From Verrucomicrobia bacterium S94 (GTDB lineage Bacteria; Verrucomicrobiota; Kiritimatiellia; Kiritimatiellales; Pontiellaceae): 64,000 nucleotides of DNA. Below are positions 44,678 to 64,000 of the stretch, piece after piece. Position 1 is the first letter of the stretch; the number at the start of each line of letters is the position of its first letter. The position numbers and the translations under genes were made by a program. The stretch is taken from positions 186,001 to 250,000 of the forward strand of contig CP036201.1 of NCBI GenBank assembly GCA_004299845.1, in the 5' to 3' direction. The notes beneath the pieces were generated by a model. It saw only the letters and a list, made by a program, of their open reading frames with translations, made no database searches and was not told the DNA's origin.

Positions 44678-45046
44678 GGCGGGTGATGGGCTGATCTGTT
44701 GCGGGTGGTCGGCGGGTAACAAAAAAGGATCCCCCGCCTCGGCATCTAGCTATCAATGAGGTTGTTATATTCGTTGGCGGGTGTTGCGGGTGTTTTTTCG
44801 GAAACTATGACCCTCTATATCACACGTTTTTTCTCTCTCCCTCTCTTATACGCATACATAGGAAAAAAAGTCTGTCGCACGATGGTGGGTTTTCTAAATT
44901 AACCCCCGCAACACCCGCCTCTCTGTTTTTTATTATTCATATCTGCTTAAATATAAATAAATAACAACGTTCTTCAGCTGGCGGGTGTTGTGTTTTTCAT
45001 CCCCCGCCCATCCCCCGCCGTCCCCCGCCAACACCCGCCAATAAGA
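44676..45046. repeat. GC-rich iteron cluster, candidate phage replication origin
   Basis: At least eight copies of a GGCGGGTGTTG/CGGGTG unit occur in both orientations: clear examples at 44676-44686, 44701-44718, 44773-44794, 44977-44990 and, inverted, at 44902-44919 and 45001-45039. They flank an AT-rich stretch (about 44935-44975). Repeated short iterons, an AT-rich unwinding zone and a position directly behind the primase-helicase gene are the usual features of a phage origin. The region holds no gene. Confidence 0.55.
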
Positions 45047-45073
45047 CTATCCCCGTTAAAACAGGCGGGATTA

Positions 45074-45131: not shown

Positions 45132-45845
45132 ATGTTTCTCGAAGGCATCCGACATTTACTGGGGTCTAGCAATGACCACGATGAAGATAGCGAACAGCAG
45201 GCGCTGTACGTTTCTACCGATTTGAACGCGCAGGTACTCACACTCCAGGAGCAGGACGTTAACCATGACGGGCAAACCTATCGTCAGTTAACCCCCGACT
45301 ATTTTGCTTGGCTCCGTTCCCGCATGCAGACCGCTCAGTCCGCGCACCGGAATAAACGGATCTCAGACAAAAACTGGAACATACTCCGAGAACGCTTCAA
45401 TCCCATTCAGCACCATGCCATTGAGATGTTCGGGCAGGATGCTCTCAAAACGGCCTGTGAAAATTTCAACTCAAACCGTTATCAGCCTCCGCAGGATTTT
45501 CTGGAGGAACGGTGGATCTATCCACAAAACGAAACGCTTAAATTTTCTGCGGACGTTAAATCAAGCGCCGTCGCCAAAGTAGATGCAATTCGCTCACAAG
45601 CCATGGATCTCGGATGGACGGAACCTCAGCTTTATCAAAATCAAGGCCGCCACCGATTTCCCTGCGGCGGTGATTATGGACTCATCTGTTTTGTCGGTAG
45701 CGACCGGAAAATTGGCGAGGTGACCGAATCCTACATTGGGATTGTTCACGGCATAGGCACCGCCCGAGAGCGTGTGTTGAAATTTCATAACTCCAAGGTA
45801 ATGCAACCATGGATGAAAAAGGTGGAGGTACCCCATGTCCACTAA
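45132..45845 (+). CDS. unknown phage protein
   Basis: A 237-aa soluble protein, acidic at the N-terminus and basic toward the C-terminus, without a recognised domain. A WIYPQNETLKFSADVKSSAVAKVDAIRSQAMDLGW segment appears helical and is followed by a Gly/Cys-containing strand region. It opens the transcription unit after the origin-like region, directly downstream of a promoter element. Its stop overlaps the following HTH gene by 11 bp. Confidence 0.65.
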   Translation: MFLEGIRHLLGSSNDHDEDSEQQALYVSTDLNAQVLTLQEQDVNHDGQTYRQLTPDYFAWLRSRMQTAQSAHRNKRISDKNWNILRERFNPIQHHAIEMFGQDALKTACENFNSNRYQPPQDFLEERWIYPQNETLKFSADVKSSAVAKVDAIRSQAMDLGWTEPQLYQNQGRHRFPCGGDYGLICFVGSDRKIGEVTESYIGIVHGIGTARERVLKFHNSKVMQPWMKKVEVPHVH

Positions 45846-46110
45846 GCCCTATGCAAACGCAGAAGACGTCCTGCCACTAGAATTGCTCCAAGAGATCCAG
45901 AAACATCATTCGGGTATGCTTTGGATTCCCGCCGCCGAGTCATTTTACCGCCAACGCCGCAAACTGGTGATTGCTCTCAAGGATGAAGGCATCAGCACGG
46001 AGGAGATTGCCAACCTTGCCGGAATTACACCGCGCCGGGTGAACCAGATTCTGGCCCAGCACAAAAAAGAGCAGGCCGTCCGACACATTGACCCGGCTTC
46101 CGGTAAGTAA
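45835..46110 (+). CDS. Mor/CD3324-like HTH protein
   Basis: A 91-aa protein resembling the small HTH family that includes the Mu Mor activator domain: NAEDVLPLELLQEIQKHHSG..IP followed by RRKLVIALKDEGISTEEIANLAGITPRRVNQIL as the helix-turn-helix. It could regulate late or lysogenic genes. The last codons, encoding SGK and the stop, are themselves part of the second box of promoter element 4. Confidence 0.75.
   Translation: MSTKPYANAEDVLPLELLQEIQKHHSGMLWIPAAESFYRQRRKLVIALKDEGISTEEIANLAGITPRRVNQILAQHKKEQAVRHIDPASGK
46081..46110 (+). promoter_or_regulatory. phage bipartite element, copy 4
   Basis: CGACAC, ten bases, then CTTCCGGTAAGTAA. It overlaps the 3' end of the HTH gene and lies 88 bp before the terminase small subunit candidate. 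Confidence 0.85.
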
Positions 46111-46197: not shown

Positions 46198-46761
46198 TTG
46201 GCCATTTCAAAAACAGATAAAGGCAGCTTGGATCGCTGGCACCGGAATGAGGGAAAAACCGAAATGTCCGACGCGATGAAAAAGAAAGCGGAATCCATGG
46301 AAGGCAACCTGCAGACCCTCAAGCACGGCATCTTTGCCGACCGCTGCCTGACGCCCGAAGAAAAGGTCATGTTCGACCACATCATCGAGAAGCTGCACGG
46401 CGACTTCCAGTTCAACAAATCCAGCGACTTCCTGCAGGTGGAACTGGTGGGTATCTATTCCGTAAAGCTGGTCCGGGCGCAGATTGAAGGTAACACACAG
46501 GCCGCCGAAAGTCTGGACCGGATGATCCGCTGTCACATGAAGGATCTTAAAACCACCAAGATTGCCCGGGAAGGCGAAGAAGCCAAAGGGCCGACCACGT
46601 CTCCCTCGGACTGGGCCACCGCACTATTGGAAAAGGTGGAGGAAGTCGCCGAGAAAAAGAGCGCTCCCCGTAAAAAGAGGAAAAAAACTGCGGATAACAC
46701 CAAAGCCGCCAAAAAGAAGACCCCCACCAAACGGGGCGATGCGGAGGCTGAGAATGAGTGA
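46198..46761 (+). CDS. terminase small subunit candidate
   Basis: Starts at a TTG at 46198, preceded by CGGAG; the ORF is open further upstream only through the promoter region. The 187-aa product has ALKHGIFADRCLTPEEKVMFDHIIEKLHGDF-type helices, SLDRMIRCHMKDLKTTKI and a long Lys/Ala-rich tail, similar to small terminase subunits, which bind the packaging site and recruit the large subunit. The match is by pattern only. It is about 2.5 kb before the large terminase gene because an opposite-strand recombinase cassette intervenes. Confidence 0.6.
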   Translation: MAISKTDKGSLDRWHRNEGKTEMSDAMKKKAESMEGNLQTLKHGIFADRCLTPEEKVMFDHIIEKLHGDFQFNKSSDFLQVELVGIYSVKLVRAQIEGNTQAAESLDRMIRCHMKDLKTTKIAREGEEAKGPTTSPSDWATALLEKVEEVAEKKSAPRKKRKKTADNTKAAKKKTPTKRGDAEAENE

Positions 46762-46838
46762 AAGTGCGCATAACTCTGGTTCTAGGAAATTTTGCTTAAC
46801 CAATATTTCCCGGAATGCGCCGCTGGGGACATTGTTTC

Positions 46839-46959
46839 ATGGTTTCCCATGGTCCGGACATCGTCAGAGATCATCAGGACATGGTGAGTCATGGTCCAAA
46901 CATGATCAAACATCATCGGGGAATCGTCGGGAATTATCAGCATATCGTCGGCTGGCATC
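46839..46959. repeat. helically phased array of 12 short repeats
   Basis: Units of the form AT(G/C)(G/A)TC begin at 46839, 46849, 46860, 46870, 46881, 46891, 46902, 46912, 46923, 46933, 46944 and 46954, i.e. alternately 10 and 11 bp apart, averaging 10.5 bp, the pitch of B-DNA. Equivalently there are six imperfect 21-bp repeats. Such phasing puts every unit on the same face of the helix, as for a protein that covers several sites. It lies between the terminase small subunit candidate and the recombinase cassette. Confidence 0.8.
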
Positions 46960-47011
46960 GGGAATTGTGTGCTTTGAGCTATACTCTCTCATACTGTCTC
47001 TATGCTGTAAG

Positions 47012-47038
47012 CAAAAGAGAGCGGCCTCAACCGCTCCC
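47012..47038 (-). terminator. terminator of the tyrosine recombinase cassette
   Basis: Read on the minus strand, GAGCGG, a six-base loop and CCGCTC are followed by TCTTTT, about 30 bp past the integrase stop codon. Confidence 0.7.
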
Positions 47039-47063: not shown

Positions 47064-47975
47064 TTACAGTCGCTCCAACGCATCCTCCAGCTGGCCATCA
47101 ACCAGATGGGTGTAAATCTGCGTGGTGGAAACGTCCCGGTGCCCCAGTGCCCGCTGAACAACCAACAGGTCGTTGGTGGCCTCGTAAAGGTGCGTGGCGA
47201 ACGTATGCCGCAATCCGTGAGGGGAAACCTCTTTCTGGATTCCGGCCTTCTTCATCCAATGCGCGATGCGGTTGGCCATCTGCCTTTTGCAGAGCCGCGT
47301 CTTTCGATTGGAGATCAGCAGCGCATTGCACTGCGGTGTGTTTTGCCGGGATCGTTCTCGCATATATCTTCTCAGCAGGATGCGGAGGTCGGTCTTTATG
47401 AATTTGACCTGTATCACATTTCCTTTGGCCCGCACCCGTAGCTGTTTGGCATCGAGGTCGATGTCGTTGACCGTCAGCGCCGCCAGCTCACCGATGCGGA
47501 TCCCGGTGCCGAGCAGGATTTCAATCATCACTCGATCCCGCAAGCTCGCAAAGCCAGTCCTCGATTTGACTTCCTTCAGTAAGGCTTTCTTTTCCGCGCC
47601 AGTCAGGAAAACAGGCGGCTTCTGCGGGAGCCGCTTCATACGCAGGGACCGCGCCGGATTGTCCGGCGTGATACCCATGTCAGAGGTCCAGCCAAAGAAT
47701 GAACGCACTGCCGCTTTCATCCGGTGCAGGGATGCGGGCGACCGCTCGCCTTTCGGGGACTGCAATACCGCGTCCGACGAAAAGACCCGATCCAGCAAAG
47801 CAGGCGTTGCTTCGGAGCATCGCGACAATGCGGCCACACGCGCCACAAGGCGCAGGTCTCTTCCGTATGCGGTAATAGTTCCTTCGGCACGGCCTTCGGC
47901 GGACAGGTGCGCACAAAAGGCCGCGATTGCGGCCTCTGCGGTTACTTCTGGTTGTAACGCGTGGTTATTCACCAT
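47064..47975 (-). CDS. tyrosine recombinase (XerC/D-like)
   Basis: A 303-aa protein from the ATG at 47975 (the frame is open 21 codons further). It has a SAM-like N-terminal core-binding domain (about 10-105) and a complete catalytic domain with R in GTGIRIGELAAL, HGLRH (H-x-x-R), LGHRDVSTTQIYTH (H and nucleophile Tyr). It closely resembles Xer-type recombinases of integrative elements. Its upstream gene overlaps the start by 11 bp and encodes a second, stand-alone core-binding domain. Transcription is opposite to the surrounding phage genes. Confidence 0.9.
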   Translation of the reverse strand: MVNNHALQPEVTAEAAIAAFCAHLSAEGRAEGTITAYGRDLRLVARVAALSRCSEATPALLDRVFSSDAVLQSPKGERSPASLHRMKAAVRSFFGWTSDMGITPDNPARSLRMKRLPQKPPVFLTGAEKKALLKEVKSRTGFASLRDRVMIEILLGTGIRIGELAALTVNDIDLDAKQLRVRAKGNVIQVKFIKTDLRILLRRYMRERSRQNTPQCNALLISNRKTRLCKRQMANRIAHWMKKAGIQKEVSPHGLRHTFATHLYEATNDLLVVQRALGHRDVSTTQIYTHLVDGQLEDALERL

Positions 47976-48330
47976 CGCTGGCCTCCTCGGCCTTGTCGCG
48001 TCCCATCGGGGTGCTCTTCGGAAGCGGGAGGTCTTCAATCTTTCCCGTATCCTTCGCCCAGACCAGCATCATGCGAAAAACCCGCACGGTCTTGGCCACG
48101 GTGCGCTCGGCCCGTGCTTCGCCGTTGCCCCGTTTCAACAGCTGGTCGGATTTCAGGAATTTGCCGACCTGCGGAACGCGAAGGCTGGCCAGCTTTTTGT
48201 CGGAGCCGAAATACTCCTCAATCAGAGCGAGATCTTTCGCGTAGGTGTAGAGCGTCCGCTCCTTTTTGCCCAGCCCGCGCAAATGCTCGATAAAGGCTTC
48301 GGTTGCTTCGTGAATAGTCATCTCTGTCAT
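47965..48330 (-). CDS. stand-alone recombinase core-binding (SAM-like) domain protein
   Basis: A 121-aa protein that matches only the N-terminal helical DNA-binding domain of phage integrases (TIHEATEAFIEHLRGLGKKERTLYTYAKDLALIEEYFG... FRMMLVWAKDTG), ending in an acidic tail, with no catalytic domain. Overlap with the full recombinase downstream suggests that the two are made together, perhaps as a hetero-complex. It may also be the relic of a second integrase. Confidence 0.75.
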   Translation of the reverse strand: MTEMTIHEATEAFIEHLRGLGKKERTLYTYAKDLALIEEYFGSDKKLASLRVPQVGKFLKSDQLLKRGNGEARAERTVAKTVRVFRMMLVWAKDTGKIEDLPLPKSTPMGRDKAEEASDGE

Positions 48331-49241: not shown

Positions 49242-50765
49242 ATGGCACTGACGGCCAGAGAACGTAAACTCGCGGAAACACTGCGTGATCCCGTGTTGTG
49301 GGGACAAGCCTATCTCCACAACCGGGACGGCTCTGGCCGTACCTATTGGGACCACCAACTCGAAGACCTGCGGAGTTCCCATAAAAACATCATCCACCTG
49401 GATGGTCGCGATGTCGGCAAATCCATAGTGCTGTCAACGGATGCGCTGCATTACGCATTCACGACCCGGGGTGGACAGGGCCTTATCGCCGCGCCGCACC
49501 AAGGGCACCTCGACACGTTGATTGAAGAGATCGAATTCCAGCTGGACCACAACGAAGACCTGATGAACAGCATCGCGCTGACCAAATACGGAAAACCGAA
49601 GATCCAGCGCAAACCCTACTTCCGAATCGAATTCACCAATGGCTCGGTGATCTATTTTCGTCCTGCAGGCGCGTATGGCGATGCGTTCCGTTCTCTCCAC
49701 GTCAATCGCGTATGGGTCGATGAGGGTGCGTGGTTACCGGAACGGGCATGGAAGGCCCTGCGCCAATGTCTGAAAACTGGCGGGCGCTTAAAGATTTATT
49801 CCACTCCCAACGGTCTGCGCAACACGACCTATTATCGCCTGACGCTATCGGAGCAGTTCCAAGTGTTCCGCTGGTCATCTTGGCTGAATCCTCATTGGAA
49901 CGCCGAACGCGAAGCCGAACTGCTGGAGTTCTATGGCGGGCGCGATACCTCCGGCTGGCAGCATGAGGTCGCGGGGGAACACGGCAAGCCGTCCTACGGC
50001 GCGTTCAATATCGAGCAACTCAACCTTTGCCGACAGGAGCTGCTGGAATATCAGAAGATCACCATTACCGACGCAGAGCTCCGGGACTGCGAAACCGAAG
50101 AAGCCGCCTATGACCGGCTGGAACTGCTGCTGAACCTCATGCCTCGAACCGGGCTGTTTTGGATCGGCGGCGACTTGGGCTATACGAACGATCCAACCGA
50201 ACTGGTTGTTTTTCAGGAGGTGGAAGTTGGCGATCGCACCATCTTGAAGCTGGTGCTACGGCTTCACATGAAGCATGTATCCTATCCGCATATCGCTCAG
50301 ACCATCGCCTTGTTGGAACGCTATTTCACTCCGGCTGGCATCGGCGTGGATAATGGCGGTAACGGCTTGTCCGTCGTCCAGGAGTTGCTGACGCTCGACA
50401 AATACAAAGAGTTACAGCTCGAAGAGCGCCTCAAAGGTTTTGATTTCGGCGGTATGACACGGATCACACTGCGTGATGGCAAGGAGATCAAAAAACGCAC
50501 CAAGGAGCTGATGACCAACCTTATCAATGGGTCTCTCCAACGCAAGCAGCTTATCTTTCCGTCGGACGATCTGGAAATTGAAGACCAGTTCACCACGCAG
50601 ACCTACACCTTACGCGACGGGAAAATCATCTATTCAAAGGGCAACGATCACATCATCGATGCCGTCCGCTGCGCTATGCTGGTTCGGGAACTCGGCGATC
50701 TGGATGCAGGAACCGAAGAAACCGTCTTTATCAAACCCGTCCTGACTGATCCGGTTTTTGTTTAA
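49242..50765 (+). CDS. terminase large subunit
   Basis: A 507-aa DNA-packaging motor protein. The ATPase domain shows Walker A GRDVGKSIV (about residue 56) and Walker B RVWVDEGAW (about 155); the C-terminal RNase-H-like nuclease domain has Asp residues in WIGGDLGYTNDPTE, GIGVDNGGNG and HIIDAVRCAML. Terminase couples ATP hydrolysis to DNA translocation into the procapsid and cuts the concatemer. The class is confidently recognised even though the closest relatives are not. A promoter element follows within 10 bp of its stop. Confidence 0.9.
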   Translation: MALTARERKLAETLRDPVLWGQAYLHNRDGSGRTYWDHQLEDLRSSHKNIIHLDGRDVGKSIVLSTDALHYAFTTRGGQGLIAAPHQGHLDTLIEEIEFQLDHNEDLMNSIALTKYGKPKIQRKPYFRIEFTNGSVIYFRPAGAYGDAFRSLHVNRVWVDEGAWLPERAWKALRQCLKTGGRLKIYSTPNGLRNTTYYRLTLSEQFQVFRWSSWLNPHWNAEREAELLEFYGGRDTSGWQHEVAGEHGKPSYGAFNIEQLNLCRQELLEYQKITITDAELRDCETEEAAYDRLELLLNLMPRTGLFWIGGDLGYTNDPTELVVFQEVEVGDRTILKLVLRLHMKHVSYPHIAQTIALLERYFTPAGIGVDNGGNGLSVVQELLTLDKYKELQLEERLKGFDFGGMTRITLRDGKEIKKRTKELMTNLINGSLQRKQLIFPSDDLEIEDQFTTQTYTLRDGKIIYSKGNDHIIDAVRCAMLVRELGDLDAGTEETVFIKPVLTDPVFV

Positions 50766-63463: not shown

Positions 63464-64000
63464 ATGCACGAAAACGTATTAAAGCAGCTTCATCATGAGC
63501 ACAATTTCGAAGGTGATGCTCAGGAAAATGAAAAAAAGACACTACAAGTAATTATCCTGACCGGGATAACGATGTGTGTAGAAATTGTTGCTGGAATCTT
63601 TACCGGTTCAATGGCTTTGCTGGCAGACGGCTGGCATATGGGAACTCATGCTTTTGCGCTGGGAATCACCTATTTTGCTTATGTCATGGCCAGAAAGTAT
63701 TCCGGCTCTTCAAAGTTTGGTTTTGGCACCGGAAAATTCGGGATTCTATCCGCTTACACAAGCGCTCTGTTTTTGGGCGGAACAGCAATTTATATGATGG
63801 TTGAGTCGGTTGAGCGTTTTTTTCACCCCGTAAATATTGCATTTAATGAAGCTATTGGAGTCGCTCTTGTCGGGCTTATTGTCAACGTAGTAAGCGTATG
63901 GATGCTCCATGGTCAAGAAGGTCACCATCACCACCATGAACATGACCACCATCATGAGCATGATCATCACCATGATCACAACCTTCGAGCGGCATATTTG
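63464..64000 (+). CDS. DmeF-like cation diffusion facilitator (partial, runs off the window)
   Basis: The N-terminal 179 residues of a CDF-family metal/proton antiporter. It has ITMCVEIVAGIFTGSMALLADGWHMGTHAFALGITYFAYV (TM1-2 with the metal-binding HxxxD-type core, here D and H) and the FGFGTGKFGILSAYTSALFLGG helix, then a His-rich cytoplasmic loop with many H, E and D residues that would bind metal. The family member DmeF exports Co2+/Ni2+. The AAGGAC site precedes the ATG. The gene is cut at the window end. Confidence 0.88.
   Translation, partial: MHENVLKQLHHEHNFEGDAQENEKKTLQVIILTGITMCVEIVAGIFTGSMALLADGWHMGTHAFALGITYFAYVMARKYSGSSKFGFGTGKFGILSAYTSALFLGGTAIYMMVESVERFFHPVNIAFNEAIGVALVGLIVNVVSVWMLHGQEGHHHHHEHDHHHEHDHHHDHNLRAAYL

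Follow-up and report, generated by a model that had tools for sequence, protein, structure and literature searches.

A helically phased repeat array beside a dif-like site in the terminase cluster of a prophage

A dif-like module between two terminase genes

Xer/dif sites that carry an accessory arm are already known as a kind of recombination system. In the plasmid site cer, a 30-bp core is accompanied by wrapped accessory DNA about 180 bp long (PMC2409434, PMC5357621). More generally, the cer/Xer plasmid sites, which are controlled by PepA and ArgR, place a dif-type core next to ~100-200 bp of accessory DNA that is thought to be wrapped, and they serve intramolecular resolution. In the single-recombinase systems XerS/difSL and XerH/difH, one Xer protein acts at its own dif-like site, and the XerS gene adjoins difSL (PMC5357621). 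The site described here resembles cer in its dif-type core with adjacent accessory DNA and in the resolution role that we propose for it, resembles XerS/difSL in having one Xer gene beside its own site, and resembles P1 Cre-loxP in pairing a phage tyrosine recombinase with a site of its own, possibly for multimer resolution or cyclisation.

The window, a 64-kb stretch of a single-contig 4.1-Mb genome, contains part of a prophage that extends from ~29.9 kb to ~92 kb, with both ends judged from gene content only. A serine recombinase lies near a tmRNA gene at the left end, and tail genes lie beyond the window. The left flank was found to share no direct repeat of at least 15 bp with the region up to 36 kb beyond the window. 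The terminase cluster begins with the small terminase subunit candidate TerS (46198..46761, plus strand, 187 aa, TTG start), which is assigned through the family matches of its relatives and its synteny with TerL. These relatives have hits to terminase small subunit families of PHROG (phrog_1889, best E 3e-8) and, weakly, to NF040601; the window TerS itself gave no family match. The large subunit TerL is encoded at 49242..50765 on the plus strand (phrog_2, E 3e-31; Pfam Terminase_6N/6C).

Between the terminase genes, on the minus strand, lies an Xer-type tyrosine recombinase (47064..48038) supported by Pfam, NCBIfam, structure and alignment. It matches PF00589 (E 2e-42) and the XerD structure 1a0p (E 2e-34), its matches to the XerC, XerD and XerA NCBIfam models fall below the curated cut-offs, and the catalytic residues (RKHRHY) are intact in all eight aligned sequences. 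A second minus-strand gene (47965..48330) is predicted from structure to encode a 121-aa stand-alone core-binding (SAM-like) domain protein with no catalytic domain. Its model (pLDDT 88) matches the core-binding domains of lambda Int, Tn1549 Int and XerD (Foldseek probability 1.00, E about 0.006-0.07). We know of no described role for a stand-alone core-binding domain beside a full recombinase. In complete loci, these two genes always lie between TerS and TerL.

Directly behind TerS is a 28-bp dif-like core, AGTGCGCATAA-CTCTGG-TTCTAGGAAAT (46763..46790, plus strand, 11-6-11), which the sequence-only reading of this DNA had missed. The element, with a 6-bp centre between its 11-bp arms, is shared by the TerS-recombinase intergenic regions of about 60 loci, some of them redundant. 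Its typical form in relatives is AGTTCAGATAA-GACGTG-TTCTCTGAAAT, and relative L138 carries ATTTCGCATAA-ACTTGA-TTATGCGAATA. The arms form an imperfect dyad, with a mean of 7.5 of 11 positions palindromic in 32 relatives' cores. A position weight matrix made from 32 distinct relatives' sites, with the window and its near relatives left out, scored 25.7 bits at the core and 9.6 bits at the next best position on either strand of the 64 kb. The left arm is one base off what we take to be the left arm of E. coli dif. In addition, the 3′ end of TerS contains a left half-site, ACTGCGGATAACACC (46687..46701, plus strand), at 76 bp from the ATAA of the core. A corresponding half-site, GNATAACACC, lies 74-76 bp upstream of the core in 44 scanned entries, some redundant, and core and half-site together are kept in dozens of relatives from several phyla.

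We considered the core as the attachment site of the integrated prophage and rejected this reading, given that the core lies unbroken within the prophage, whose left end carries a serine recombinase. The core is likewise intact between TerS and TerL in all loci, chromosomal ones included, indicating that the prophages are not integrated through it. Integration at host dif, as in IMEX elements, would call for a centre and an arm that match host dif. The best dif-like site of the host, a candidate only, is TCGCATAA-TATATC-TTATGTCTA, and its centre differs from the CTCTGG of the phage core.

Several traits separate this module from its described counterparts. Unlike cer, which PepA and ArgR bind, it has a phage-encoded, adjacent recombinase and an arm with a 10.5-bp-phased array in a Kiritimatiellota host, although the position and phasing of the array fit a cer-type accessory sequence. 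Unlike XerS/difSL and XerH/difH, it sits between phage terminase genes and has, besides the recombinase, a protein with a core-binding domain only, as well as a half-site at a distance of 76 bp. It also differs from P1 Cre-loxP, since no accessory arm of this sort is known for loxP and the present module is embedded in a terminase cluster. Titles and abstracts in a limited open library yielded nothing that we recognised as this terminase-gene setting. Against that searched literature, the terminase-cluster setting, the lone core-binding-domain partner, the fixed half-site and the phased, length-variable arm appear to be new.

The phased array and its variable arm

About 48 bp from the core, eleven ATNRT(C) units form an array (46839..46954, plus strand) that was delimited by pattern, periodicity and genome searches. 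The units start at 46839, 46849, 46860, 46870, 46881, 46891, 46902, 46912, 46923, 46933 and 46944, with the last unit core at 46944-46948, and the gaps alternate strictly between 10 and 11 bp without exception (~10.5 bp, or one unit per helical turn). The sequence-only reading had placed the array at 46839-46959, which is correct within a few bases, and its alternating 10/11-bp starts are borne out at every unit. It had counted twelve units, but the supposed twelfth (ATCGGG, 46957) follows at 13 bp and is off-motif. Its unit type, AT(G/C)(G/A)T, describes ten of the eleven and fails at 46933, which reads ATTAT. The sixth base is C in nine units.

A four-unit array pattern had three overlapping matches in the window and none in 100 dinucleotide shuffles. 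Identity at lags of 21 and 42 bp, measured over 117 bp, reaches its window maximum at the array (0.58; next best 0.44; window mean 0.27, sd 0.04), making it the strongest 21-bp-periodic stretch of the 64 kb. The array is the sole occurrence of a five-unit ATNRT pattern in the 4.1-Mb genome, and among 346 genomes of the class a six-unit pattern was found only here (reversed control, 0).

Within the unit, A1, T2 and T5 are invariant in all eleven copies, and conservation varies between columns by more than homogeneous decay would produce (P = 5e-5). Spacer sequence is nearly random: similarity is 0.32 between same-parity units (multiples of 21 bp) and 0.31 between the other pairs, leaving no trace of a 21-bp duplication. 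Invariant A, T and T amid random spacers suggest selection, and the array looks like a helically phased protein-binding array whose long form is present in one genome only.

The array belongs to an arm with a recurrent order. To the right of the core, relatives carry an inverted repeat, a variable part, a TGTGTTC-like box, ACTGT repeats ~11 bp apart and the recombinase terminator. In the window, the inverted repeat GGAAATTTTGCTTAACCAATATTTCC (46785..46810, unstranded) overlaps the right arm of the core, and similar inverted repeats occur in most relatives having an accessory arm. The array occupies the variable part. It is followed on the plus strand (46966..47008) by a TGTGTGC box and the direct repeats ATACTC/ATACTGT/ATGCTGT, 10 and 11 bp apart, the counterpart of the relatives' TGTGTTC box and ACTGT repeats. 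An intrinsic terminator-like hairpin of the recombinase gene (47017..47038, minus strand) completes the arm. The neighbours had been named correctly, with the TerS candidate upstream and the tyrosine recombinase downstream, but it is the 3′ end of the latter gene that the array faces, from beyond the terminator. Searches of the array region, which lies between convergent genes, gave no promoter and no Rfam match.

The length of the arm varies among relatives. The nearest ones with the prophage, a Pontiellaceae bacterium (B12219) and a Kiritimatiellales MAG (OB10), have three units in the variable part (ATAGT-10-ATTGT-11-ATGGT). Their variable part is exactly 84 bp, or 8 turns, shorter, although the region is nearly identical otherwise, and the 55 bp downstream are identical. 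The arm is almost absent from L030, L031, L033, L135, L137 and L139. Where it exists, ACTGT occurs in 13 pairs spaced 10-13 bp, with 0.007 expected (18 lineage representatives, some related), and ATSRT units cluster before the TGTGTTC box (16 against 1.1 expected, from few independent lineages). When the array was looked for beside the small terminase genes of relatives, as the sequence-only reading had recommended, the closest relatives had three units and the long array was absent elsewhere.

The TerS-TerL cassette occurs in isolates of Desulfobacterota, the gammaproteobacterium Ectothiorhodospira and Pontiellaceae, and in MAGs of other phyla. In sequenced phages, TerL matches were at most 28% identical, and TerS and the core-binding-domain protein had no match. 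Viral contigs contained no exact match to the array flanks. An array-type pattern was present in 27 of them, mostly as coding microsatellites; of the pattern-matching arrays examined closer, those of L076/L078 and L090 fall inside replication-initiator-like genes and those of L086 and L098 were uninformative.

Accessory DNA and the competing readings

We give about an even chance to the reading that the array serves as accessory, arm-type DNA whose wrapping governs recombination at a phage Xer/dif-like site in the terminase cluster. Several copies of a small DNA-binding protein would occupy one face of ~11 turns, with the core-binding-domain-only protein, TerS or a host factor as candidate binders. 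The bound protein would wrap or bend the array DNA and so steer the synapsis of two core sites, as PepA and ArgR do at cer. The product would probably be the resolution of phage genome multimers, or the cyclisation of genomes that carry two copies of the site in their terminal redundancy, and this would account for the persistence of the site beside packaging genes. Multimer resolution or P1-like cyclisation is likely, though we infer it from position only, and position is also what ties the array to the core, the sequence offering nothing further. The occurrence of three units in the closest relatives and of nearly armless lineages indicates that a long array is not essential to the site. An attachment-site arm or nucleoprotein-bending site had been among the functions suggested from the sequence, and of those suggestions the context favours this kind: the array does lie in an accessory arm, that of a conserved dif-like site, though not one that served to integrate the prophage. 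If the accessory reading is true, a recombination module has been kept over long evolution between two terminase genes of a widespread prophage family, and the locus provides a natural, length-variable and strictly phased array for testing DNA wrapping in recombination or packaging.

A bolder possibility, which we hold to be doubtful, is that recombination and packaging are coupled and that the phased array is a platform for wrapping that serves both the recombinase complex and terminase or switches between them. A phage lineage spread across several phyla would then have built an Xer/dif-like system, comprising the recombinase, its core-binding-domain-only partner, the half-site at 76 bp and a fast-evolving phased arm, into its terminase cluster, with P1-like cyclisation tied to the start of packaging.

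A role in packaging alone is unlikely. In such a pac or cosB-like initiation site, the subunits of a TerS ring would each contact one motif per turn and wrap ~115 bp, as proposed for SPP1/SF6 pac. The array does lie just behind TerS, its helical phasing fits a ring, and as at SPP1/SF6 pac the repeats cover ~100 bp beside the small terminase gene; small-terminase rings have been proposed to wrap about 100 bp of DNA (Greive et al. 2015, PMC4737164). However, the same study found that the SF6 repeats are not what the DNA-binding domain recognises (PMC4737164). The low-confidence predicted structure of TerS (pLDDT 62) had no PDB match and no visible DNA-binding fold. The position differs as well: SPP1 pac lies at the promoters and the beginning of the TerS gene, the array here behind it. 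Furthermore, unlike SPP1/SF6 pac, the array does not follow the conservation of its terminase: TerS is ~90-93% identical in relatives with only three units, and the armless lineages keep both TerS and TerL. The pac/cos-type function suggested earlier thus gained no specific support.

We are also sceptical that the array serves another phage DNA-binding protein, as a parC/ParR-like partition site, replication iterons or an operator. ParR-bound parC-type centromeres are the best-known arrays of 10-11-bp direct repeats and, like this one, have multiple repeats about one helical turn apart. The same 10/11 spacing recurs in L090 and L076 inside genes that look by eye like replication initiators, and a small HTH protein gene (45835-46110) lies upstream. 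In contrast to parC, no ParR or ParM family was found among the flanking genes scanned, and motif and context are unrelated. A better origin candidate exists at 44678-45070 beside the primase gene, and the array lies between convergent genes in a region where no promoter was found.

That the array is a neutral minisatellite, a degenerate 21-bp tandem repeat with no function, is improbable. Close relatives do differ in copy number and the long form is confined to one genome, but the spacers have no duplication trace and the three unit positions are invariant. Coding heptad repeats, on either strand, can be dismissed as very improbable: several open frames span the array, but the 10-bp step, not being a multiple of 3, puts odd and even units in different reading frames so that coding cannot explain their shared core, a stop interrupts the plus-strand ORF in relatives, and the minus-strand ORF end is not kept, in agreement with the earlier view that no gene is supported there.

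Further features of the prophage family

The origin candidate at 44678-45070, the densest cluster of its kind in the window, directly follows the primase gene; its boxes, GGCGGGTG / CACCCGCC, number about a dozen, are oriented both ways and surround an AT-rich stretch. The phased arrays of L090 (3571-3617) and L076 (815-861), which belong to other phages, are possibly origins read as heptads. In the prophage structural region, a CsoR-like and a cation-efflux-like gene were recognised by eye at 63165-64420, running past the window end, with a His-rich repeat stretch at 63923-63983; this is probably cargo.

Some relatives also have cargo genes, named by eye, that separate the dif-like core from the recombinase: endonuclease-like genes (L009, L018, L120, L134) or Doc-like genes (L071, L140, L177), as if the dif-like site were an insertion hot spot there. 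In Desulfobacterota prophages (L022, L121-L128), the same arm holds intergenic CATAAGCCAAGCAGATATTGGCATGT-motif repeats of variable copy number. Elsewhere in the host genome (2304189-2304368), a recombinase has an insertion typical of integron integrases. TerL, which had no close match in 50,697 phage records, is ~72-99% identical across prophages of Kiritimatiellota, Desulfobacterota, a gammaproteobacterium and MAGs of other phyla (L116-L145), an unusually wide spread for one prophage family.
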